A stretch of DNA of 64,000 bases from Burkholderiales bacterium (GCA_947474755.1 CANJJE010000007.1:1-64000); one strand, 5' to 3'; positions 31,301-55,264 are shown, counted from the stretch's first letter. Notes: generated by a model from the sequence alone, not told the origin. A program made the numbers and translations.

Positions 31301-31726
31301 CTCGAATGGGCTGTGCGGCGAGATGCGCTGGAACGCACTGATCTCGGTACCCTGTGCAGCGCCGCATCCCGTGAATTCGGTGTCGATGTCTTGGCCGTGC
31401 AGCGAATCACCGGCGCGATCCTGGGCAGCCCGGCATGTCAGCGGTTTTTCGATGCCCGACAGTTGATCTGGGCGGCCAACGAAGTCAGCGTGGTCGATGG
31501 CCAGGAGTTGCTGCGCATCGATCGTCTTGTGCACTGCCGGGCGGCTGACGGCGAAGCCGAGGCCTGGTGGGTGCTCGACTACAAGCTCAGTCACTCGCCG
31601 CACCAGCTCGATGCCTACCGTCAGCAACTCACGCGCTATCAGCGCGCGGTGTCCCGGCTCCAGCCGACAGCGGTGGTCCGTGGCGCGTTCATCACCAGCA
31701 GCGGTGCATTGATCGAGCCAGGCTGA
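28322..31726 (+). CDS. AddA-like UvrD-family helicase with C-terminal nuclease motif
   Basis: EACAGAGKTWMLVSRILRALLEGAEPQEILAITFTRKAAGEMRERL; LLIDEFQDTSPLQW; GDPKQSIYRFRRA; C-terminal WWVLDYKLS. Confidence 0.88.
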   Translation: MSAPDASVQPAYRIDGTVVGADAFYAVACDPRRHVVVEACAGAGKTWMLVSRILRALLEGAEPQEILAITFTRKAAGEMRERLNDWLTAFSADVGSDDDRALALQQRGLDAATAQALVPTLAGLQQRLQQAGRSVEIRTFHAWFSQLLKAAPLELLMELGMPRDAQIIEDIADHESEVYRRFHVAVIADVVLRADYQHMVRQRGRSQLRKWLDAAWAKRVEIELADAAGTLESSVAPPEAPWHEAGPATHPTQWVQASELTEILQRCASTLGVGGGKKAADAARAIEAALTMKDSSAEAVFDALWSALFTKVGTPRKALGDSAEQQAAIDVLTTLRDAMAQHEARDEHLRMVRLSRVLFAELAAYKRSRGLIEMADLERCAVALLGDSALSGWVQERLDARVRHLLIDEFQDTSPLQWHALAAWLAGYAGAGGGASGQRPPGVFIVGDPKQSIYRFRRAEPKVFEAARDFVQQGLGGSVLSCDHTRRNAPEVLAVLNAVFGQAESEGRFAGFRPHSTALVSVPGAGASRLPLVLREPKERQADEADETWRDTLSVPRAEPEQRLRQQEADGVASAVREVLASGVPPGEVQVLCRKRESLRLVASSLAAFGVPCAAVEEALLMEAPEVRDLVAVLDVLASPGHALSLAQALKSPVFGCSDDDLVQIATVVARTASRAVTEAANATVVDAGGADEQPVAQDARPRHRSDPLGWWQALHGLPEPSTALQRARDLLAAWQQAAWSLPPHDLLDRIVSEGDVMARTLAAVPPMRRKAAQAAIEALLAQSLSLDGARGATPYNFVRALRRRRLTITVPAQPDAVQLLTIHGAKGLEAEVVFVMDTQPEPPKAESASLLVHWPVQSAHPLTCAFVYSESRCPPSLAPGFADEQAARGREELNGLYVAMTRAKHRIVFSATMPHGAVASPTWWQRLEPHAVAWSPAPADAALCDPSIPAARVQVLPTWVATSWTATTTSDEREGLSRNSETSRLGQAVHRVLEWAVRRDALERTDLGTLCSAASREFGVDVLAVQRITGAILGSPACQRFFDARQLIWAANEVSVVDGQELLRIDRLVHCRAADGEAEAWWVLDYKLSHSPHQLDAYRQQLTRYQRAVSRLQPTAVVRGAFITSSGALIEPG

Positions 31727-31816
31727 GCCTTCAAGAGGCTCGACGCCGGCTGTTCGCGAGCCCGTTTGCGGGAAAAAACACTCCTAACGCCGACGATTTC
31801 ACTGGACGGTCCCGAT

Positions 31817-31832
31817 TGGCACGAAGTTTGCA
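31817..31832 (+). promoter_or_regulatory. Sigma-54 (-24/-12) promoter
   Basis: TGGCACG-AAGT-TTGCA matches every specified position of TGGCACG-N4-TTGCW; 34 nt separate it from the ATG at 31867. Confidence 0.75.
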
Positions 31833-31866
31833 CACAACGGTCACGGAAAACCTCCAGACTCGCGAC

Positions 31867-33747
31867 ATGATCTATGCGCCGTCCCTTCCGTCAAGCAACC
31901 GGCCGAGCTCGCTAGGCCGCCATTTCGGCCGCTTCGAGTTGCTCAAGCTGCTGGGCAAGAGCGAGGGCAGCATGGTCTGGCTGGTGCTTGATCCGCAGAT
32001 CCAGCAGCAACTGGTTCTGACCATGCCACGGGTGCAGCCCAGCGACGCGGCTGCGCTCGAACGCTGGTCGGCGCAGGTGCGGCACGCTGCCCGGCTCGAC
32101 CATCCCAACCTGGTGACCGGTGTCGAGGTCGGCGTCCAGGCACAGTGGCCGTATCTGGCCGCCGAGCGCACCGCCGGCATCACCTTGGGCGAATGGCTGA
32201 TCGACCACCCGAACCCATCGCCGATCGATGCCGTGCGGTGGGTCTGCGATGTACTCGAAGGCCTGGCCTTTGCGCATGAGTCCGGTGTGGCCCACCAGGA
32301 CCTGCAGCTCCACAGCCTGCAGATCAGCGAGTCGGGCCGCGTGAAGGTGATGGCGTTGGCCACCGCAAGCGCACAGGAAACGCCGGTGAACGAGCCTGTC
32401 AACCGCAGTGTCGAGCATGCAACGCTGCTCGAGGCCGATGCCCTGCGCGTCCAACGCGAGCTTGCCGAGCGCGATGTGCTCGCCTGCGGCTTGCTGCTGC
32501 ACCGACTGCTCAGTGGCGCGCCAGTGCTCGACGAGCCCGACATCTCGAAAGCCTTGCGCCGCCTGCCGCCTCATGGCCGCGAACTGGTTCGCTTTCCGTG
32601 GAACACGCCGCATCCGATTCCGGAGGCGCTGCGTGCAATCGCCAATCGCAGCACGGCCGGGCAGGCTCGCCAACGCTACCGCAGCGCCCGAACCTTCCTG
32701 CGCGCGCTGCAAGGCTGGCTGGAGGCCGAGGTCAGGGGTCACGACGGTCCGCTCGAACTGATTCTGGACCGCCTGCGCACCGTGGGCGCCTTGCCGGCAT
32801 TGGCCGACATCAGCGGCCGCGTCGACCGTCTGCTGGCAATCGATGCTCACCACAACGAGGAAATCTCGCGGCGCATCCTGCTCGACATGGCATTGACCTT
32901 CGAGCTGTTGCGTGAGGTCAATTCCGCGCACGTGCAAGGCACGCAGGCGTCGGGCTCGGGCCCGGTGCTGACGATTCGCCGTGCGATCTCGCTGATCGGC
33001 CTGAACGGTGTGCGACGGGCCGCCAATGGCCTGAGGCAGTGGCCCGGCCCGCTTTCCGAAGCGAATGCGCAGGCCTTGCTTGCCTTGATGGATCGGGTCC
33101 GCCTAGCGGGCTACACCGCGCAGGCTTTGCGTCCTGCCGGGTACGACGCCGAGGTGGTGTACCTGGTGACGGTGCTGCAGAACCTGGGGCGCCTCCTGGC
33201 GCAGTACCACTTCCCGAGCGAGTACGAGCAGATCCGCGTGCTGATGCGCAGCCTGCCACCACCCGCAGATGCCCCGAAGGGCACCCTGCCCACGCCGGGC
33301 TGGGGCGAATCGGCCGCTTCATTCGCCGTGCTCGGCATCGACATCGAAGCGCTCGGTACCGCAGTGGCCCGCCACTGGGGCCTCGGCGAAGAGATGCTGC
33401 ACATGACCCGCCGTTTGCCCATCGACCGGCCGGTGCGCGCGCCGGACAACGATAGCGATGTGCTGCGTATCGTCGCAAGTGCCGCCAACGAGGCCGTCGA
33501 TGCAGCCGCGCATCCGTCTGCCGAGACGGTTGAATCGGCTGCCGCAACCAAGGCCGGGCGTGGTGGTAATCCGCGTCAATCGGTTGCGGTGCGCTATGCG
33601 CGCAGCCTCGGTCTGACGCCGAAACTCGTGCAGGAGGCCCTGGTCGCCGCGCGCGACGCACTGCGTACCGGCGAGCCTGTTCAGACGGCCTCGCCACGCG
33701 AAGACACGCCATCTGTGTCCGAAAACCCCCCTGCCGCAGCCAAGTGA
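31867..33747 (+). CDS. Degenerate protein kinase-like domain fused to HDOD domain
   Basis: N-terminal kinase-like fold (FELLKLLGKSEGSMVWLVLD; HQDLQLHSLQISESGRVKVMALATAS) lacking key catalytic residues; C-terminal HDOD-like region (RRAISLIGLNGVRRAANGL). Confidence 0.75.
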   Translation: MIYAPSLPSSNRPSSLGRHFGRFELLKLLGKSEGSMVWLVLDPQIQQQLVLTMPRVQPSDAAALERWSAQVRHAARLDHPNLVTGVEVGVQAQWPYLAAERTAGITLGEWLIDHPNPSPIDAVRWVCDVLEGLAFAHESGVAHQDLQLHSLQISESGRVKVMALATASAQETPVNEPVNRSVEHATLLEADALRVQRELAERDVLACGLLLHRLLSGAPVLDEPDISKALRRLPPHGRELVRFPWNTPHPIPEALRAIANRSTAGQARQRYRSARTFLRALQGWLEAEVRGHDGPLELILDRLRTVGALPALADISGRVDRLLAIDAHHNEEISRRILLDMALTFELLREVNSAHVQGTQASGSGPVLTIRRAISLIGLNGVRRAANGLRQWPGPLSEANAQALLALMDRVRLAGYTAQALRPAGYDAEVVYLVTVLQNLGRLLAQYHFPSEYEQIRVLMRSLPPPADAPKGTLPTPGWGESAASFAVLGIDIEALGTAVARHWGLGEEMLHMTRRLPIDRPVRAPDNDSDVLRIVASAANEAVDAAAHPSAETVESAAATKAGRGGNPRQSVAVRYARSLGLTPKLVQEALVAARDALRTGEPVQTASPREDTPSVSENPPAAAK

Positions 33748-33847: not shown

Positions 33848-34660
33848 TCAGCCACCACCGGCTGGAAGCGCATGTACTTGCGCTGAAGGTTCCCGGATGA
33901 AATCGAGGAATGCGGCCAACTCATGCGGCGGGCCGGAGGTGAAGAACGTGGTCGTGGCCACTTGCCTCGGCACGGGTACCGGCGACGCCGGGAGTACACG
34001 AGACAGCTGGCTGGCAATGGCTTCAGAGGGTTCGACGATCGTGGTCGCGGCCCCAGCAATCTTCGCAATCTCTTCGATGAGGAATGCGTAGTGCGTGCAG
34101 CCCAGCACGATGGTGTCGGCGCCCGCATCAAGGCCTGGCCGCAGGTACGACTCCAGCAGCTGCCGCGTCAGCTCATCGTGGAATCGACCGCGCTCAACCT
34201 GATCGGCCAGACCCGGGCAGGCCTGCAGAATGATCCGCGTGTGCACCCCATGGGTACTGCACAGGCGTGCAACGGAGGAGCTGCGGATGGTGTTGCTCGT
34301 CGCCAGCACCAGCACGACCCTGGACCGGCTGACCTGGGTGGCCGGCTTGATGGCTGGCTCCATCGCGACGATGGGCAGTGTGTACCGCTCGCGCAGCCGC
34401 TGCACTGCGACGACGCTGGCGGTGTTGCAGGCGATCACCAGCGCCTTGGCACCGCGCCTGTTCAGGAAGCCGGTGATGTCGCGGGCGCGGCTCTCGACAA
34501 ATGAAGCCGACCGATCACCGTAGGGCGCGTGGCCACAGTCGGCCACGTAGATGAAGGACTCCCCTGGCAGTTTCGCCTTGAGAGCCCGCAGCACCGACAG
34601 GCCACCGACACCGGAGTCGTAGACACCGATCGATGCCGCCATGGCCGCTGGATTCAGCAT
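33848..34660 (-). CDS. murI: Glutamate racemase
   Basis: IGVYDSGVGGLSVLRALKAKLPGESFIYVADCGHAPYGDRS...ALVIACNTAS...IVLGCTHYAFL. Confidence 0.96.
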   Translation of the reverse strand: MLNPAAMAASIGVYDSGVGGLSVLRALKAKLPGESFIYVADCGHAPYGDRSASFVESRARDITGFLNRRGAKALVIACNTASVVAVQRLRERYTLPIVAMEPAIKPATQVSRSRVVLVLATSNTIRSSSVARLCSTHGVHTRIILQACPGLADQVERGRFHDELTRQLLESYLRPGLDAGADTIVLGCTHYAFLIEEIAKIAGAATTIVEPSEAIASQLSRVLPASPVPVPRQVATTTFFTSGPPHELAAFLDFIREPSAQVHALPAGGG

Positions 34661-34665
34661 GCGTG

Positions 34666-35331
34666 TCACTGCGCAGGCCCGGCGTCGAAAACTTCCACTG
34701 GCGCCAGCTTCAGGAGTTCGTGCGCGTCTGCCGTCGACCCCATCAGCCACTGATCGACGTCATCCACCTCGATGGGGATCACCGAACGCTTGTCCTGCTG
34801 GTCAGGCGGCAGATTCGGATCGGGCTTGTGCATTCTCCGCATCAACGGATGCGCGTCCGCGTTGATCGTGAGCATCGTGTAGCTCTCGACCATCTCGCCG
34901 GTTTCCTTGTCGATCCAGGTGTTCCACAAGCCAGCGAGTGCCCAGGGTTGCGTATCGGCGCGCCGGAAGCGCCACCAGACATTCCTGCCAGCCTCCCAGT
35001 TCGGTTCGTCGAAAGACTCCGCCGGGATGATGCAACGACGACCACTTGTCCATGATGGCTTGAAAGACGCCTTGTTCGTCATCTCCTCGGACCGCGCGTT
35101 GCAGGTCGAGTAGGTCAGCTTCGGTGACTTGGCAAACCACGGAATCAAGCCCCATCGTCCAACCACCAATGCGCGGCTGTGCGCTGCTCTATCGCCCATC
35201 GCTGGCCGGATGAACGGACCCGGTCGGTCCGGAAAGACTTCAGACTTCGGCCAGGTGAAAGGGTTGTCGCGCCCGATGTGCCAGGCGAGCTCCATCGCAG
35301 ACTGATCTGGAGTGATGTACCGGGTACACAT
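34666..35331 (-). CDS. SOS response-associated peptidase (SRAP/YedK/HMCES family)
   Basis: N-terminal MC (MCTRYITPDQ), RWGLIPWFAKSPKLTYSTCNARSEEMTNKASFKPSWTSGRRCIIPAESFDEPN. Confidence 0.93.
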   Translation of the reverse strand: MCTRYITPDQSAMELAWHIGRDNPFTWPKSEVFPDRPGPFIRPAMGDRAAHSRALVVGRWGLIPWFAKSPKLTYSTCNARSEEMTNKASFKPSWTSGRRCIIPAESFDEPNWEAGRNVWWRFRRADTQPWALAGLWNTWIDKETGEMVESYTMLTINADAHPLMRRMHKPDPNLPPDQQDKRSVIPIEVDDVDQWLMGSTADAHELLKLAPVEVFDAGPAQ

Positions 35332-46177: not shown

Positions 46178-48115
46178 ATGGCCCTACAGATCAACATCGA
46201 CAACGGCGGAACGCTGACCGACATCTGCATCATCGATGGTCCGCGGGTCGACAAGACCAAGGTGCTGACGACACCCTACGACCTCAGCAAGTGCTTCTTT
46301 GAAGGGCTGGAAAAAGCCTCTGGCGTTGTCTACGGCAAGCCCGATGTGCGACGTCTGCTCGAGGAAGTGGACCTGATCCGCTATTCGACGACGCAGGGCA
46401 CGAATGCGATCTGCGAGCGCAAGGGGCCGCGTCTGGGTCTGATCGTCGACGCGACGGGATCGCGCCTGATCGAGGAATTGGCGGCACACGACCCGCAGGT
46501 CTATGAAGCACTGGTCGGTGATCGGGTGGTCTTGCTTGATTCAGCGCTGGTGCTGGGTGGCGACTCGCAGGCCCACGTCGTCGGGGCGATCAACAAGCTG
46601 ACCGCAACGGGCGCCAGCCGCATCGTCGTCAGCTTTGGCGGCGTCGATTTCATTGCCGTGGAAAGCGCGTTCCGGAAGGTCGCGTTGCGCAAGTATCCGC
46701 GGCATCTGCTCGGCGCGGTACCCATGCTCTACGGAAGCGACCTCAGTGTCGACAAGGATCCGGTGCGCCGCACCTGGACCGCTTTGATCAACTCCTTCCT
46801 CCACCCCGGGATGGAAGCGTTTCTGTACAACGCAGAAAACCGTTTGCGTCAGTACCGGACGAAGAATCCGCTGCTGATATTCCGCAATGACGGCGACGCC
46901 TCCCGTGTCGCCAAGACGATTGCGATCAAGACCTACAGCTCCGGTCCGCGCGGGGGTGTCGAAGGTGTCAAGGCCTTTTCCAGTGTGTATGGCTACGCCG
47001 ATGTGGTGGCCATCGATGTTGGCGGAACCACCACCGACATCTGCCAGTACGTCTCTGGCGGCGTCGCAGAGGATCGCCGGGGGCACGTCGAGGGCATCAG
47101 CGTGTCGATCCCGCTGTGCGAGATCGTCAGTGCCGGCGCGGGTGGCAGCTCGATCATCAAGGTCGTCGACCGCAAGATCGTCATCGGCCCGGAAAGCGTT
47201 GGTGCGGTCCCGGGGCCGGCGTGCTTCGGGCGCGGCGGTCAGTTCGCCACCATCACCGACGCCAGCCTGCTGATGGGCTTGTTCGATCCGAAGTCGTATT
47301 TCGGTGGTGGCATGGGCCTTGACCTCGATCGCGCCGCGACGGCCATCGCGGTCAATGTGGCCGAACCACTGGGACTGAAGCTGGAAGAGGCGCTGCAACA
47401 GATGGAGGTGGCCTTTGAAGCGAAGGTCGCCGCCGAATTGCATCGCGCGACCCGGATTTCCAAGGACAGCGTGCTGCTGGCGTTCGGCGGCGCCGGGCCG
47501 CTCAACGCCTGCGGCGTCGCCGAATTGGCCGGCATCGACAAGGTCGCCGTGCCGCACATGGCGGCGGTGTTCAGCGCCTATGGCATCGGCACCTGCGACA
47601 TTTCGCAGCGCTATACCGAATCCCTGGCGCAACACGACCAGCGCGGGCTCGACAAGGCTCTCGCCACGTTGCAGGCCAAGGCCGGGCGCGACATGTATGC
47701 CGAGGGATTCGAGAAGGGACAGTTCGATATCGAGGCCCGACTGGTGGCCACCGATGCCAAGGGTGCGGAAACCATTTACCCGCTGACCGCGACACCGGTG
47801 TTTCCGGCGGCCATCGACAGTGCGACCACGGTCGAACTGGAACTGGCGGCGATCAAGCGCCTGCGGGCGGATACGGGCGCCACCACTCGGGTCAGCGTGG
47901 GCGCTGTCGCGACAAAGACCGGCGTACGAAACATCCTCGCCCGTGGCCATGGCCGCATCGATGTCCCGGTGTACCAGCTCGGCGCACTGAAGCCGGGCGA
48001 TCACGCGCCGGGCCCGGCCATCGTTGAGGAAGACTATTTCACCTGCCGCGTGCTCGAGGGTTGGACCTTCGTGATCAGCGACGCTGGCGACATCCTGTTG
48101 AACAGAAAGGCTTGA
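46178..48115 (+). CDS. HyuA-like ATP-dependent carboxylase alpha subunit (acetophenone carboxylase ApcA-like)
   Basis: Hydantoinase/oxoprolinase fold: INIDNGGTLTDICIID, YSTTQGTNAICERKGPRLGLI, VAIDVGGTTTDICQYVSGG; first gene of the five-gene set. Confidence 0.8.
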   Translation: MALQINIDNGGTLTDICIIDGPRVDKTKVLTTPYDLSKCFFEGLEKASGVVYGKPDVRRLLEEVDLIRYSTTQGTNAICERKGPRLGLIVDATGSRLIEELAAHDPQVYEALVGDRVVLLDSALVLGGDSQAHVVGAINKLTATGASRIVVSFGGVDFIAVESAFRKVALRKYPRHLLGAVPMLYGSDLSVDKDPVRRTWTALINSFLHPGMEAFLYNAENRLRQYRTKNPLLIFRNDGDASRVAKTIAIKTYSSGPRGGVEGVKAFSSVYGYADVVAIDVGGTTTDICQYVSGGVAEDRRGHVEGISVSIPLCEIVSAGAGGSSIIKVVDRKIVIGPESVGAVPGPACFGRGGQFATITDASLLMGLFDPKSYFGGGMGLDLDRAATAIAVNVAEPLGLKLEEALQQMEVAFEAKVAAELHRATRISKDSVLLAFGGAGPLNACGVAELAGIDKVAVPHMAAVFSAYGIGTCDISQRYTESLAQHDQRGLDKALATLQAKAGRDMYAEGFEKGQFDIEARLVATDAKGAETIYPLTATPVFPAAIDSATTVELELAAIKRLRADTGATTRVSVGAVATKTGVRNILARGHGRIDVPVYQLGALKPGDHAPGPAIVEEDYFTCRVLEGWTFVISDAGDILLNRKA

Positions 48116-48120
48116 AGACC

Positions 48121-48522
48121 ATGAAGGTTCTGATGACGGAATACCTTCGCGTCGATCTCGATGCGGAGCAGTGGGAATGCCGGGTCTGCGACCACCTGAT
48201 CGGCACGGCGACCAGGAGCTACAAGGAAGGCATGCTGGTCTATGACCGCGACCCTCGCGAGATCCATCCGCCCATCATCGACCCCGAGCGATACAAGTTC
48301 ACCTTCAGCCCCGATCCGGAGTGGGTACGCATCCTCGAGTACTACTGCCCGAATTGCGGCACGCAGGTCGAGACCGAGTACGCGATACCGGGACATCCGC
48401 CGCTGCACGACATGCAACCCGACCTGCCCGCGCTGCGCGCGCAATGGGCCGGACGTGAGGAACTGAAAGAAGGCGTGGTCGGCCCGGCGGTGACTTCCGG
48501 CTCAGGCGGCCACTCACACTGA
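48121..48522 (+). CDS. Small zinc-ribbon-like carboxylase gamma subunit (ApcB-like)
   Basis: 133 aa with CRVCDHL and YYCPNCGTQVETEYA; located between two HyuA-like genes. Confidence 0.75.
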   Translation: MKVLMTEYLRVDLDAEQWECRVCDHLIGTATRSYKEGMLVYDRDPREIHPPIIDPERYKFTFSPDPEWVRILEYYCPNCGTQVETEYAIPGHPPLHDMQPDLPALRAQWAGREELKEGVVGPAVTSGSGGHSH

Positions 48523-48607
48523 TCGATCCGCCGCGAACTGGTGTCCCTTCGGCACCTGTCCTCGCGGTGCCATCGAGCGCCAGCCGCCATCCAAGCAAGG
48601 AGAAGAA

Positions 48608-50743
48608 ATGCGACGCATATCCGTAGACATCGGCGGCACGTTCACAGACTGTTTTGTCGTGTGGGACGGCCAATACATCGAAGCCAAGGCGCTGACCACC
48701 CATCACAACCTGGCGCTGGGGTTCAACGAGGCGCTGGAGAAGGCCAACAAGGTGCTCGGCCTTGAACTCGAGACGATCCTGTCGCAGGTGGATTCGGTGC
48801 GATACGCCACCACGCTGGGCACCAACGCGCTGATCGAGCACAAGGGTCCGAAGATCGGCATGCTGGTCACCGCAGGCTTCGAAGCCACGGTGCCGCTCAG
48901 CCGCGCACGCGGCTACGGCGAGGGGCTCGACAACCTCGGCAAGCAGGACATGCCCAATGCGCAGCGCCCCGCGCCCCTGGTTGAAGCGCACATGATTCGC
49001 GGCGTGCGCGAGCGCCTGGACTTCCAGGGCAAGCTGGTGATGCCCCTGGACGAAGAGGATGTACGCCGGCAGATCCGATCGCTGGTGAATTCCGGTGCGC
49101 AGATCATCGTCGTCGCGCTGGTCAACAGCGTCGTCAACCCGGCCCATGAGCAGCGCATCGAGGAGATCCTGCTGGAGGAGTATCCGTCGCACCTGCTGGG
49201 AGCGATCCCGATCATCCTGTCGCATCAGGTCGCGGGCCGCAAGGGCGAATATGTTCGTGCCACTTCGGCCGTCATCGACGGCTACCTGCACTCCACGATG
49301 TACCACGCGCTGTCGGCGCTGGAGCAGAACCTGCGTGCGCACAAGTACGACAAACCGATGCTGGTGATCCACAACTCCGGCGGCATGGCGCAGTTGAACT
49401 CCACCGACGCCCTGCAGACGATCCACTCAGGCCCGGTCTCGGGCATCGCAGCGTCCGAGCACCTCGCGATGCAAGCCGGCCTGGGCAATGTGGTGGCCAC
49501 CGACATGGGCGGCACCAGCTACGACATCGGCATCGTGGTCGAGGGCGGCATCAAGCACTATGACTTCAATCCGGTCATCGACCGCTGGCTGGTGTCGGTA
49601 CCGATGGTCCACCTGGTGACGCTGGGTGCAGGTGGCGGCTCGATTGCCACTTACGACCGGATGTACAACACGGTGAAGTGCGGCCCGCAGAGCGCGGGCT
49701 CCGATCCGGGGCCGGCCTGCTACGACCGTGGCGGCATGAGTGCCACGGTGACCGACGCCGATCTGCTGCTGGGCTATCTCGACGCGAAGAATTACGCCGG
49801 CGGCTCCATTCCACTGAACCTGCGCCGGGCCACCGCTGCCATCGAGGACACACTTTGCGAAGACCTCGACTGCTCGGTCATCGAGGCGGCGCTGATGATC
49901 CGCGAGAAGGTCGATGACAACATGGCCAACGGCCTGTTCACCGAGCTGCGCGCGCGTGGCTATGACCCGAAGGCGTTCACGATGCTCGCCTACGGCGGTA
50001 ACGGTCCCTTGCACTGCTGTGGCATCGCACGCAACCTGGGCATCGACAAGATCCTGGCACCGCCGCTCAGCTCGGTGTTCTCGGCGGTCGGTGCGGGCAA
50101 CATGCACCAGCTGCACATCCACGAGCAGTCGCTCTACATGGTGCTCTACGACTCGAACAGTCGGCACATCTTCGACGACTACAAGCGCTTCAACAGCATC
50201 GTGGTCGAGCTGAAGGAAATGGGCACGCAGGACCTGATCCGGCAGGGCATTCCTCGCGAGCAGATCCAGCACAGCCTGGAGCTCGACATGCGATACGGAA
50301 ACCAGCTCGTGCAGACCACTGCGGTGATTCCGCAGCACGAAGTGCATGGAGCGGCCGACGTGCTGGCGATCATTTCGCAGTTCTCGAACGACTACGGCAA
50401 GCGTTTCGGCGAGGGCAGTCAGGCGCCCGAGGCCGGTATCCGTATCAACACGATCCGGGTTGCCGCGTTCGTCCAGCTCGAAACCGTGGAGTTCGAGGAC
50501 ATCAAGGCGGTGCCCAAGGAGCAGCGCAAGCCGCCGCCCAAGCCGGAGACCGTGCGCAAATGCCATTTCGTGGGACACGAAGGCGTGGTGGAGACGCCGG
50601 TGTGGAGCCGCTCGGCCATCGAGCCCGGGGTGCAGATTTCCGGCCCGGCCATCATCGCCTCCGAAGTCACCACCTTCCTGGTCGACCCGGGCTGGACCTT
50701 CGTCGCAGCAAGGCAAGGCGCCTCCTGGTTCCTGCGCGGCTGA
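48608..50743 (+). CDS. HyuA-like carboxylase alpha-prime subunit (ApcC-like)
   Basis: ISVDIGGTFTDCFVVWDGQYIEAKALTTHHNLALGFNEAL, YATTLGTNALIEHKGPKIGMLVTAGFEAT, DMGGTSYDIGIVVEG, GPACYDRGGMSATVTDADLLLGYL. Confidence 0.85.
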   Translation: MRRISVDIGGTFTDCFVVWDGQYIEAKALTTHHNLALGFNEALEKANKVLGLELETILSQVDSVRYATTLGTNALIEHKGPKIGMLVTAGFEATVPLSRARGYGEGLDNLGKQDMPNAQRPAPLVEAHMIRGVRERLDFQGKLVMPLDEEDVRRQIRSLVNSGAQIIVVALVNSVVNPAHEQRIEEILLEEYPSHLLGAIPIILSHQVAGRKGEYVRATSAVIDGYLHSTMYHALSALEQNLRAHKYDKPMLVIHNSGGMAQLNSTDALQTIHSGPVSGIAASEHLAMQAGLGNVVATDMGGTSYDIGIVVEGGIKHYDFNPVIDRWLVSVPMVHLVTLGAGGGSIATYDRMYNTVKCGPQSAGSDPGPACYDRGGMSATVTDADLLLGYLDAKNYAGGSIPLNLRRATAAIEDTLCEDLDCSVIEAALMIREKVDDNMANGLFTELRARGYDPKAFTMLAYGGNGPLHCCGIARNLGIDKILAPPLSSVFSAVGAGNMHQLHIHEQSLYMVLYDSNSRHIFDDYKRFNSIVVELKEMGTQDLIRQGIPREQIQHSLELDMRYGNQLVQTTAVIPQHEVHGAADVLAIISQFSNDYGKRFGEGSQAPEAGIRINTIRVAAFVQLETVEFEDIKAVPKEQRKPPPKPETVRKCHFVGHEGVVETPVWSRSAIEPGVQISGPAIIASEVTTFLVDPGWTFVAARQGASWFLRG

Positions 50744-50788
50744 TGCCCCGCAGGACACACGCCGAACCGACAAACATCGAGGATTGAC

Positions 50789-53065
50789 ATGACTGAAACC
50801 CTAGCGCCCATCACTGCGAAGCTGCCCAGTGCGCAAGAAATCGCGCTGATCAAGAAGTTTCTGAACGACACCACGCTGTTCCTCGGGCCCGACCCCGAGA
50901 TCATGAAGAACCACGACCTGATGCCGCGCAGCGCGCTCGAAGAAGAGTGCATCGCCAAGATCAGTGACGCGCAGACGGTGGCCAAGATCCGCGATCGCAT
51001 CCAGGCCGGCTGTGACGAAGGTTTCGAGATGGTCGAGCAAATGGGGGCCGCGCCCGGCGCCAAATGGGGCGACATCATCACCGGGGTCTACTCGGCCTCG
51101 GGCGATCTGGCGATTGCCAGCGCCGGCGGCGTGCTGATCTTCTCGGCGCTGGTGCATCACCCGATCAAGTTCATCCTGAAGAACTGGGTCAACGACCCGA
51201 CGGTGGGTGTGCGCGAGGGTGACGGCTTCATCCACAACGATTCGCGCTACGGCAATGTGCACAACACCGATCAGAGCATGATCGTGCCCATCTTTCACCA
51301 GGGCAAGCTGATCTGCTGGGTGGCCTCGACGGTGCACGAAGGCGAGAACGGTGCGATCGAGCCGGGCGGCATGCCCTCGATGGCCGAGAGCCCGAGCGAC
51401 GAAGGGCTGAAGATGTGCCCGTTCAAGGTGGTCGAGAACTACCAGATCAAGCGCGACATCCTGACCTTTCTGCAGAACTCGGTGCGTGAGCCCAAGCTGC
51501 AGTACGAGGACATGAAGGTCAAGCTGTTCGCCTGTCTTCGCATCAAGCAGCGCATCGAGGAAACCCTCAACACCGATGGCCCCGCACCACTGGTATCGAC
51601 ACTGCGGCTGACGATGGAGAACGTGCGCGCCGAGGTCAAGCGTCGCATCAGCGAATGGCCCGACATGACGGTCCGCACCTACATCATCCAGGACTCGACG
51701 CTGCGGGAGAACTGCGTGGTGAAGGTGAACTGCCAGCTGACGAAAACCGGCGACCGGCTGATCTTCGACTTCCGCGGCTCCAGCCCCGAGTTCACCAACC
51801 GGCCCACCAACACCATCCTCGCCGGCCTCAAGGGCATGCTGTCGCAGGTGATCATGTGCTACGTCTGGCCCGACCTGCCACGAGGTCAGGCGGCGTTTGC
51901 GCCGATCGAAGTCATCACGGATCCGTACTCGATCGTCAACAGCTCCTACGATGCGCCGAACTCGCAGAGCCTGATGTCGATCTTCACCGGCTTCACCGCC
52001 GGGCAGCATGCAGTGGCGAAGTTCCTGTACTCCTGCCCCGAGAAATACACGAAGGTCCATGCGCCGACGTTCAACATGATCAACACCTTCATCTGGGGCG
52101 GCGTCAGTCAGCACGGCGAAACCCTGGGCAACCTGTGCGCCGATCTGAACGGCATGGGCGGTGGTGCGCGATCCGACATGGATGGCGAGCACGCGCTGGC
52201 GCCGATCTTCGCCACGATGGCCGACATTGGCGAGCAGGAACTCAATGAAGAGGACGTGCCCTTCCTTCAGCTGGTGTCGAAGAAGATGACGATGGACGCC
52301 GTGGCGCCCGGCAAGTACCGCGGCGGGCAGGGCTACACGATGATCGTCGCCACCAAGGACAGCGAGCAGTGGGGCTTCATGACCACCGCCCAGGGCGCAA
52401 AGATCCCGCCGATCCAGGGCCTGTTCGGCGGTTACGCCTGCGGCACCTATCCGCTGTCGAAAGTGAAGGGCGTCGACGTCTACGACGTGCTGCTGAACCA
52501 GCCCGAGCGTTTCAAGCACTCGATCGCCGAGATCATGAACGAGCGACCGTTCGAGAATGCCACTTACACCACGCACCACATGGGCATGGGCTTCGAGATC
52601 TCCAAACGCGGCGAGCTGTTCATGATTTCGCAGGGCGCCGGCGCCGGCTATGGCGACTTGCTGGAACGCAACCCTGCAGCCGTGATTCGCGACATCGAGG
52701 AAGGTTTGATGTCGCAAGGCGTGGCGGCCCGGTTGTACAAGGTCAAGTTCGATCCGATCACGCTGGCCATCGACACCCAGGGCACCGAGGCCTTGCGCGC
52801 GGCCGAACGCAAGGCGCGCATCGCGCGCGGCGTGCCCTACAAGGACTTCATCAAGACGTGGAACAAGCCGAAGCCGCCGTCGCATCTGCAGTATTTCGGC
52901 TGCTGGGGCGATGACATCGGTACGCTGTACATGGGCAGCCCGGACATCACCCGTGATGCCAACTCGCCGAAGCCCAACTACATGCGCCATCCGAAGGATG
53001 TGCGCATCGAGGCACTGGAAGCACGGCTGGCGGCACTGGGGGCCTTGAAGGAAGAAAAGCAGTGA
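50789..53065 (+). CDS. HyuB-like carboxylase beta subunit (ApcD-like)
   Basis: Hydantoinase B/oxoprolinase signature: GDIITGVYSASGDLAIASAGG, HNDSRYGNVHNTDQSMIVPIFHQGKLICWVASTVHEGENG, PGKYRGGQGYTM. Confidence 0.85.
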   Translation: MTETLAPITAKLPSAQEIALIKKFLNDTTLFLGPDPEIMKNHDLMPRSALEEECIAKISDAQTVAKIRDRIQAGCDEGFEMVEQMGAAPGAKWGDIITGVYSASGDLAIASAGGVLIFSALVHHPIKFILKNWVNDPTVGVREGDGFIHNDSRYGNVHNTDQSMIVPIFHQGKLICWVASTVHEGENGAIEPGGMPSMAESPSDEGLKMCPFKVVENYQIKRDILTFLQNSVREPKLQYEDMKVKLFACLRIKQRIEETLNTDGPAPLVSTLRLTMENVRAEVKRRISEWPDMTVRTYIIQDSTLRENCVVKVNCQLTKTGDRLIFDFRGSSPEFTNRPTNTILAGLKGMLSQVIMCYVWPDLPRGQAAFAPIEVITDPYSIVNSSYDAPNSQSLMSIFTGFTAGQHAVAKFLYSCPEKYTKVHAPTFNMINTFIWGGVSQHGETLGNLCADLNGMGGGARSDMDGEHALAPIFATMADIGEQELNEEDVPFLQLVSKKMTMDAVAPGKYRGGQGYTMIVATKDSEQWGFMTTAQGAKIPPIQGLFGGYACGTYPLSKVKGVDVYDVLLNQPERFKHSIAEIMNERPFENATYTTHHMGMGFEISKRGELFMISQGAGAGYGDLLERNPAAVIRDIEEGLMSQGVAARLYKVKFDPITLAIDTQGTEALRAAERKARIARGVPYKDFIKTWNKPKPPSHLQYFGCWGDDIGTLYMGSPDITRDANSPKPNYMRHPKDVRIEALEARLAALGALKEEKQ

Positions 53066-53934
53066 GCGGACCGTTCGCGGAACGCTTGCCCGATGCGGCG
53101 GGCAAGGGTTCGATACGTGTCTGGCTCAAGTCATCGGCCTACACCCGGCGCCTGCTGCTGGGTGAGGCGGGTGATCCGTGGGTCTCCGGTGCTCATTACC
53201 TCGCGTATTTCTCGCAGGCCCAAGGGCTGCTCAAGCCCGATGTCGCGGTGCTGGAAGTGGGCGAGCTGTACGACGCGTGGAATGCCACGCACAGCGGTGC
53301 GCTGGCGGCCTCGCTCGGCAACCGGCGCAAGCCGGTGACGGCGTTGCGCAAGCTGCTCGAATCAGAGGCGCCGCGCAAGCTGCTGGCTGAGGTGGTCGAA
53401 GCGGTGCTGGCCAACCTGCGTGGCCAGACGCCGCTGGTGCTGTCGGTTCCATCCCCGCGGCGCTGGACGAATCATGCGAACCATCTGACGGGAAGCACCG
53501 ACATCGAGCTCACCGCTGACGATGCCGAAGATGCGTCGATGTACCTGACCGACCTGATCCGCAGCGTGTCGGCTTTTCCTGTGTCGGGACTGTTGCTGGA
53601 GGAGGGGCGCGATGACGCGAACTTCAATGTCGACGACCTGACGCGCTACACCTCGATCGTCAATGTCGTGCGTCACTACCGCTGGTCGCTGGCGCTTCGC
53701 CTGCCGAACGAGGCTGTGCCAGCGCCCGAGGCACTGGCGGACTTCGATGCAGTGATCTCGCCTGTCGTCGAGCAGGCCGGTGCGGCAGCACTCGGTCGCG
53801 ACATCAGCGCCGCATTCGCCACCGGTGGCGTGATCGCGCCGCTGCACGGTCGGCAGTTCTACTTCGCCGAGATCCCTGCGGGCTCGCGCCCCGAGTCGGT
53901 GCTCGAGACCGTGGCCCGGTTGCGCGGTGGCTGA
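53062..53934 (+). CDS. ApcE-like accessory carboxylase subunit
   Basis: Overlaps the HyuB-like stop; 290 aa fifth gene of the set; no HyuA/HyuB homology apparent. Confidence 0.6.
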   Translation: MSGPFAERLPDAAGKGSIRVWLKSSAYTRRLLLGEAGDPWVSGAHYLAYFSQAQGLLKPDVAVLEVGELYDAWNATHSGALAASLGNRRKPVTALRKLLESEAPRKLLAEVVEAVLANLRGQTPLVLSVPSPRRWTNHANHLTGSTDIELTADDAEDASMYLTDLIRSVSAFPVSGLLLEEGRDDANFNVDDLTRYTSIVNVVRHYRWSLALRLPNEAVPAPEALADFDAVISPVVEQAGAAALGRDISAAFATGGVIAPLHGRQFYFAEIPAGSRPESVLETVARLRGG

Positions 53935-55264
53935 TTCGGCACGTGCGCCGGTGGACCGGATTCCGGTCAACCTGCTCACTGGTTTTCTGGGTTCGGGCAA
54001 GACCACGCTGCTGAACCACTGGGTTCACCTGCCGTCGATGGCAGGCGTGGCCGTGCTCGTCAACGAGTTCGGCGAGGTCGGCATCGATCACCATCTGGTC
54101 GATACCGTCGACGAGCAGATGGTGCTGCTCGACTCCGGCTGCCTGTGCTGCGCGATGCAGGGCGACCTGATCGGTGCACTGAAGAACCTGGCGCTGCGCG
54201 CCTCACGGCGCGAGATCGCACCCGTCACCCGCGTGATCATCGAAACAACTGGCCTGGCTGATCCGGTGCCGGTGCTCTACACCTTGATGGAAGACAGCTT
54301 CGTCGCAGCGCGTTTTACCTGCGATGGCGTTGCCACGGTGGTGTCTGCCACCCATGGGCTGGAGCAACTGCGCGACTTTTCCGAGGCGATCCGGCAGGTC
54401 GTCGCGGCCGATCTGCTGTTGATCACCAAATGTGATCGCGCCACCCCGTCGATGCTGACCGCGCTGCAGGAGGCATTGCGTCAGCTCAATCCCGGCGCGC
54501 CGCAGAGGCAGGTTCGTGATGGGCAGGACGATGCTTCGGCGCTGCTTTCGTGCGGGCTGTACAGCCCCGTGAACAAGCTGCCGAGCCTGGCGACATGGCT
54601 CGGTGAGGAGGCGCTGCATCAGGCACAAGCGCAGGACGCCGGGGGCCCGCAATCCCGGTGGCTGACTGGCTCCGGATCGAACGCTGCCCCCGGCAACGAT
54701 GATGATTCGTCGGGTCGGCCTCTGGCACAGCGCTGGCGCGAAGGTCGCGATGCGCGGGCGGCGCCAGCCAACCGTTCGTCCGAGCCACACACTCAGGGCG
54801 TGACCAGCTTCGTGGTCGTGTTCGAGCGTCCGGTGCCGTGGTTCGGGTTCGCGGTCACGCTGGGCCACATCCTGTCGCAGCACGGCAGGCAGTTGCTGCG
54901 CGTCAAGGGTCTGATCAACGTGGCGGGAACACTGCGTCCGCAGATCATCCAGTGCGTGCAGGGCGTGGCCTACCCGTCGGTGACGTTGAAGGAGTGGCCC
55001 AAAGAGGGGCCGTTTCGTGACGGCTTCAGTCGTCTGGTCTTCATCGCCCGCGACCTCGATCCAGCGCATGTCGAAGCGATCCGTGCAGCGTTGTCCCAGT
55101 TGCCCACCGACGCCGCCGCATTACGGATGAGCTCCGGCGACTCGATGCTGCCCACCCGCTGCTGGCTGGCCCAGCGCATGCCGGTGAACACGCCCGACGC
55201 CATCGAGCACGAAGGCTGGATCGTGCAGGCCAAGCGCCTGCGTGGGCGTAACCTGCCTCCTTGA
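53927..55264 (+). CDS. CobW/G3E-family (COG0523) GTPase
   Basis: GFLGSGKTTLLNHW P-loop, VLVNEFGEVGID, metal motif SGCLCCAMQGDL, LLLITKCDR; GTG start lies 8 nt inside the upstream gene. Confidence 0.92.
   Translation: MADSARAPVDRIPVNLLTGFLGSGKTTLLNHWVHLPSMAGVAVLVNEFGEVGIDHHLVDTVDEQMVLLDSGCLCCAMQGDLIGALKNLALRASRREIAPVTRVIIETTGLADPVPVLYTLMEDSFVAARFTCDGVATVVSATHGLEQLRDFSEAIRQVVAADLLLITKCDRATPSMLTALQEALRQLNPGAPQRQVRDGQDDASALLSCGLYSPVNKLPSLATWLGEEALHQAQAQDAGGPQSRWLTGSGSNAAPGNDDDSSGRPLAQRWREGRDARAAPANRSSEPHTQGVTSFVVVFERPVPWFGFAVTLGHILSQHGRQLLRVKGLINVAGTLRPQIIQCVQGVAYPSVTLKEWPKEGPFRDGFSRLVFIARDLDPAHVEAIRAALSQLPTDAAALRMSSGDSMLPTRCWLAQRMPVNTPDAIEHEGWIVQAKRLRGRNLPP

Follow-up and report, generated by a model that had tools for sequence, protein, structure and literature searches.

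A COG0523 GTPase gene linked to an acetophenone carboxylase-like operon in Burkholderiales: a candidate metallochaperone for ketone carboxylases

INTRODUCTION

Acetophenone carboxylase (Apc) is the product of five genes, published as apcA (alpha'), apcB (gamma), apcC (alpha), apcD (beta) and apcE (epsilon), and it binds about one Zn per protomer (PMC5214803). The structure of ApcE (9FOU) has a release date of December 2025. An 'acetophenone carboxylase' cluster of Helicobacter bizzozeronii carries scoAB, a CoA transferase (PMC3234257), and two recombinant acetone carboxylases take up or choose their metal in E. coli without a chaperone (PMC10865871). Among COG0523 proteins, Nha3 is a precedent for a member that matures one enzyme (PMC9164220); carboxylases go unmentioned both in that paper and in PMC2770081. 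Here, we compare with these systems an operon that lies next to a CobW gene in a Burkholderiales genome.

RESULTS

Gene organization

Six consecutive genes lie on the + strand of the window, i.e. the whole 64-kb stretch of DNA that was analysed. The first, at 46178–48115, encodes an ApcA-like alpha' subunit of 645 aa, an ASKHA kinase (5L9W_b, E 4e-84). It is followed by genes for an ApcB-like gamma subunit of 133 aa (48121–48522; 5L9W_C, E 1e-30; PF08882, 133 bits), an ApcC-like alpha subunit of 711 aa that is presumed to be the ketone kinase (48608–50743; 5L9W_B, E 1e-160), an ApcD-like beta subunit of 758 aa (50789–53065; 5L9W_A, E 4e-84) and an ApcE-like epsilon subunit of 290 aa with a predicted URO-D-like fold (53062–53934; family profile to 9FOU, E 2e-18). 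The last gene, at 53927–55264, starts with GTG and encodes a CobW/COG0523 G3E GTPase of 445 aa (PF02492, 146 bits; PF07683, 59 bits). The Pfam families of genes 1–4 are Hydantoinase_A, Acetone_carb_G, Hydantoinase_A and Hydantoinase_B, gene 6 has cobW plus CobW_C, and the 290-aa gene E product has none.

The subunit genes span 46178–53934, with gaps of 5 nt (A to B), 85 nt (B to C) and 45 nt (C to D) and a 4-nt overlap of D and E; cobW comes directly after, overlapping the epsilon gene by 8 bases (GTGGCTGA). For the gamma gene, the ATG at 48121 was preferred to an upstream TTG because homologues align from the ATG. The original prediction had the strand, coordinates and lengths of all six ORFs right, as well as the GTG start of cobW inside the fifth gene. 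Its subunit order 'alpha, gamma, alpha-prime' has to be corrected, as alpha and alpha' were swapped: in the published naming, alpha' is the apcA product and alpha the apcC product (PMC5214803). Among 15 genomes of the genus, 14 have this gene order (G007 as a fragment), and the arrangement is therefore not due to chance.

Identity of the subunits

Apc is the closest solved relative of all five subunits (5L9W; 9FOU for epsilon), in agreement with the predicted Apc-type subunit set. For genes A–D, the matching 5L9W subunit outranks acetone carboxylase (Acx) and hydantoinase among solved structures; the 711-aa alpha protein, for instance, scores 539 bits with 5L9W_B versus 305 with Acx and 280 with hydantoinase. 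The ATP motifs DNGGTLTD, DVGGTTTD and GAVPGPA are present in alpha'. The alpha fingerprint [RK]ERxDxxG is found at position 134 of the 711-aa protein (RERLDFQG) and is missing from the 645-aa protein. In beta, the predicted metal ligands D95, H158, D161 and H183 align, in a motif check, with Asp65/His123/Asp126/His148, the metal ligands of Apc beta (PMC5214803). Gamma has four zinc-finger-type Cys, in the two CxxC motifs that had been announced for the 133-aa protein (residues 20 and 76), and ends in a C-terminal HSH. The earlier reading of the complex had been an ATP-dependent carboxylase or hydrolase of unknown substrate, of which a carboxylase is supported. Elsewhere, PF08882 matches weakly inside ORFs of ∼780–1550 aa, mostly 776–825 aa, in several Burkholderiales (L015, L027–L036), which would fit fusion of a gamma-like zinc domain to a different protein, perhaps one of HyuB type.

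An iterated profile connects gene E with genes in the fifth position of other Apc-like operons, and several of these genes exceed the Pfam URO-D cut-off; the family profile reaches ApcE 9FOU by sequence (E 2e-18). Its AlphaFold model (pLDDT 95.2, pTM 0.93) has ApcE 9FOU as top Foldseek match (E 1.6e-8), uroporphyrinogen decarboxylases coming next. Because of these model and profile matches, gene E encodes an epsilon subunit with a URO-D-like fold. The family profile also indicates a distant relationship with the corrinoid methyltransferase 4AY7. Epsilon was considered as a metal client and rejected, the window protein having no Cys. In Haloterrigena, a URO-D family gene (L090:10629–11597) is located between genes A and B, as if an epsilon-like gene had moved inside the operon.

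Relationship to acetophenone carboxylase and to hydantoinases

The five subunits and their order match apcABCDE, epsilon included, and could thus be those of a true acetophenone (aromatic ketone) carboxylase. However, the scores obtained with the NCBIfam Apc equivalog models amount to 22–51% of the cut-offs, which were not reached (330 bits versus 1250 for ApcA; 127/250, 582/1500 and 324/1500 for the remaining models). In the alpha-subunit tree, Aromatoleum ApcC (a sequence transcribed from the structure-hit alignment) groups with L081 and L082, outside the separate, supported clade of 73 rows to which the window protein belongs. Of seven Apc pocket residues, alpha shares two (P285 and I333) and differs at five (L81T, F281I, N282H, Q344H and T345L), whereas the alpha subunit of L081 keeps all seven. 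Moreover, no bal or ethylbenzene genes were detected within the 64-kb window. On account of the sub-cut-off scores, the separate alpha clade and the five differing pocket residues, the operon is, as judged from sequence, not an orthologue of acetophenone carboxylase, and activity as a true aromatic ketone carboxylase is very unlikely. The Apc likeness that had been put forward thus holds for subunit set and order, but the enzyme falls in a clade apart from acetophenone carboxylase and has a different pocket. One pocket signature is common to the window clade and to actinobacterial and Helicobacter enzymes, many of which are CoA-transferase-linked.

An ATP-dependent lactam or imide hydrolase (of the hydantoinase, oxoprolinase or caprolactamase type) was also considered, since alpha and beta share Pfam families with hydantoinases and alpha scores 425 bits against caprolactamase alpha. 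Yet enzymes of the hydantoinase type consist of just two subunits and have no gamma, alpha' or epsilon (PMC5214803), which is not the composition of the window operon; the score of beta to Apc is far above that to hydantoinase B, and relatives of the operon adjoin beta-keto acid genes. Clustering of the subunits with hydantoinases or 5-oxoprolinases, which had been named as grounds for giving up the carboxylase reading, is not seen. A hydrolase of this kind is very unlikely. The operon is not of Acx type either: it does not have three subunits, alpha' and epsilon are present and its gamma is shorter.

Genomic context and distribution

No ligase, thiolase or dedicated regulator was found among the 30 other window ORFs scanned; absence of the ligase and the regulator had been noted before, as had the housekeeping surroundings, which were confirmed. 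In part of the genus, the operon and cobW lie between rplI and rbgA, and in another part they have another location. The window-type operon was found in 14 of 15 genus members (in G007 only as E-cobW at a contig end), G010 having a second-type operon without a window-type one. None of the 22 further family genera that were sampled has it, and this distribution points to a gain by transfer in the ancestor of the genus.

The surroundings are different in relatives. On a plasmid of Neorhizobium petrolearium (86% in alpha), A–E share their locus with CoA transferase B and A, an additional sigma-54 factor, CobW and an activator of the sigma-54 type, and similar gene sets were found in Xanthobacter, Celeribacter, Ochrobactrum, Pseudodonghicola and Acidocella; overall, the alphaproteobacterial relatives (83–90%) adjoin a CoA transferase, an extra rpoN, a sigma-54 activator or a thiolase. 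A CoA transferase also adjoins the operon in actinobacterial and Helicobacter relatives. A second CobW-bearing lineage, to which a paralogous operon of the genus belongs (L042, L048), has an AMP-ligase and a thiolase nearby in several loci and MMPL, DUF1302 and DUF1329 genes in some genomes. A single CoA transferase is encoded in the source genome, on a different contig; most of the family likewise has one. The CoA transferase, AMP-ligase, thiolase or sigma-54 genes carried by relatives explain the missing pathway genes, and because of these neighbours the operon most likely specifies an enzyme that carboxylates a non-aromatic ketone. The substrate may be a ketone other than acetone, since three genus members (G002, G009 and G010) also carry an Acx-type gamma gene.

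As a candidate control element, a sigma-54 promoter upstream of gene A was sought (by consensus search only), and none was found in the window, the genus or the alphaproteobacterial relatives. Of 37 relatives searched, four have a MalT-like LuxR regulator of ∼940 aa (L046:2915–5734 on the − strand, L253, L254 and L255). Its gene is divergent from gene A in G008 and G012, while in G003 and G010 it precedes the second-type operon by several kb; the source genome was searched and lacks it. Two other genes of the window may be mentioned: an ORF fusing protein-kinase and HDOD domains (31567–33747), adjoining a pair formed by a PD-(D/E)XK nuclease and a UvrD-like helicase, and an Asp/Glu/hydantoin racemase family gene (33848–34750, − strand), which lies 11 kb away from the operon and shows no connection with it.

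Linkage of CobW to the operon

The CobW protein displays Walker A GFLGSGKT, CLCC at position 72, ETTG and TKCD, and YjiA is its closest solved relative. Having Walker A, CxCC and a CobW_C domain, it belongs to COG0523, and metal binding and GTP hydrolysis are predicted. The original prediction had attached this gene to the operon, and conserved adjacency bears this out. When the comparison is restricted to named loci flanked by 3 kb or more on each side, CobW is linked in 10 of 10 from two lineages (that of the window and the second one) and in 0 of 40 others compared (Fisher 1e-10, where independence is overstated because the loci are related). About 50 loci had adequate flanks, few Acx loci among them. 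The count leaves out L091 and L092, genus members first listed among the 'other' loci, and CobW at L081, L075 and L118 was not scored as linked because these proteins either fall outside both linked groups or have long branches. Within the second lineage, CobW comes after epsilon in 4 of 7 loci, and in three further clusters it is found 12–16 kb downstream on the same strand. Arrangements vary (CobW overlapping epsilon, divergent upstream of the operon or across regulator genes) and the linkage spans Alpha-, Beta- and Gammaproteobacteria. The link between CobW and the carboxylase is real and well supported.

Such operons do not universally require CobW, since G667 (100% complete) and G168 have related operons with no CobW nearby and none detectable anywhere in either genome, and the carboxylase metal ligands are equally conserved with and without CobW. 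The C-terminal HxH of gamma was examined as a possible CobW docking mark and discarded, as it is found in relatives without CobW and is absent from the second CobW lineage. All members of the window lineage, as well as some relatives, have this HxH-type His tail (window 48490–48522; L085, L094–L100), in the forms HSH, HGH and HNH.

Phylogenetically, the linked CobWs and two unlinked ones form one group (support 100/99), apart from the three other CobWs of the source genome, and each lineage's CobWs form their own group. A single clade of all 18 linked CobWs was rejected (p-AU 0.006), which makes two recruitments from one subfamily possible. CobW distances correlate with alpha distances (Mantel r 0.80, 0 of 5000 permutations). 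The unlinked CobW that is sister to the window group (L241, G041:C21:44000–60000) is one of two adjacent CobW genes and adjoins ZnuA, an ABC-3 permease and an ABC ATPase.

This ZnuABC locus, as that of the nearest unlinked relative, is what one would look for if CobW were a general zinc-homeostasis gene with many clients, tied to the carboxylase only by co-regulation or shared transfer; retention of the operon in a relative without CobW and the sameness of the carboxylase metal sites with or without it point the same way. On the other hand, the linkage outlasts many rearrangements and transfers across three proteobacterial classes and recurs in two enzyme lineages, and the source genome has its three other CobWs for general duties. 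General zinc homeostasis is thus a somewhat doubtful explanation, though one to be taken seriously.

DISCUSSION

We propose that the six genes form a co-inherited Apc-type ATP-dependent ketone carboxylase with its own COG0523 metallochaperone, a reading in full, mechanism included, to which we give an even chance. Its observed part comprises gene identity, conservation, linkage, co-divergence and site conservation. As for the reaction, the substrate and the client and metal of CobW, we infer the following. By analogy with Apc, alpha would phosphorylate the enol of the ketone and alpha' would phosphorylate bicarbonate, and the beta/gamma core, together with epsilon, would join both phosphorylated partners into a beta-keto acid. 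The beta-keto acid would then be converted to a CoA ester, here by a CoA transferase whose gene lies elsewhere in the genome, and the ester would be split by thiolase. The substrate would probably be a small non-aromatic ketone. CobW would deliver a metal, most likely Zn(II), to the D/H/D/H site of beta or the Cys4 site of gamma in a GTP-dependent manner.

Zinc is favoured because of the zinc content of Apc and of the sister CobW in a ZnuABC locus, and it is the most economical guess for the metal; zinc loading would be the best reading of the role of CobW. The chaperone-free metal uptake of the recombinant acetone carboxylases counts against metal loading by CobW. On balance, it is tentatively suggested, at somewhat below an even chance, that this COG0523 GTPase serves a lineage of ATP-dependent ketone carboxylases as their dedicated metallochaperone, probably supplying zinc; such enzymes would be a client class new to the literature searched.

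To our knowledge, most COG0523 proteins lack a known client. The present module, in which a single enzyme lineage has kept one COG0523 GTPase despite transfers and rearrangements, offers a client that can be put to the test in cultured bacteria. It is relevant, too, to the choice of metal by Apc-type carboxylases and to its acquisition. It also marks a clade of Apc-like enzymes, currently named after acetophenone or hydantoin, that probably act on other ketones. A literature search for CobW/COG0523 with acetone or acetophenone carboxylase, whose scope did not extend to the subgroups of the 2021 COG0523 review, found no such link, which suggests that CobW as a metal-loading helper for ketone carboxylases is unreported in that literature.

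Comparison with known systems

Acetone carboxylase AcxABC (5SVB, 5M45) has homologous large subunits and gamma, the H..D-x21-H metal motif, and a CoA-transferase and sigma-54 context as in relatives of the window operon; it differs in lacking alpha' and epsilon and in its longer gamma (168 aa), and no CobW was found at the four Acx-type loci checked. The H. bizzozeronii cluster compares through related Helicobacter species, which fall in the same broad Apc-like clade (C 58–59%); as in other relatives, a CoA transferase adjoins the Apc-like genes, but there is no adjacent CobW save a distant 29% homologue in L118. Apc of Aromatoleum aromaticum (5L9W, 9FOU) shares with the window operon five homologous subunits, gene order, ATP motifs, the beta D/H/D/H ligands, the gamma Cys4 and a URO-D-like epsilon. 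Compared with it, the window operon is in a separate alpha clade with different pocket residues, has no adjoining bal gene or two-component systems and is accompanied by CobW. Finally, the zinc-linked COG0523 GTPases (YjiA, ZigA/YciC) and Nha3 have the G domain, the CxCC motif and CobW_C in common with the window CobW. The latter scores far below the ZigA and CobW equivalog cut-offs and, unlike YjiA, ZigA/YciC and Nha3, the linked CobWs constitute a distinct clade tied to a ketone-carboxylase operon.
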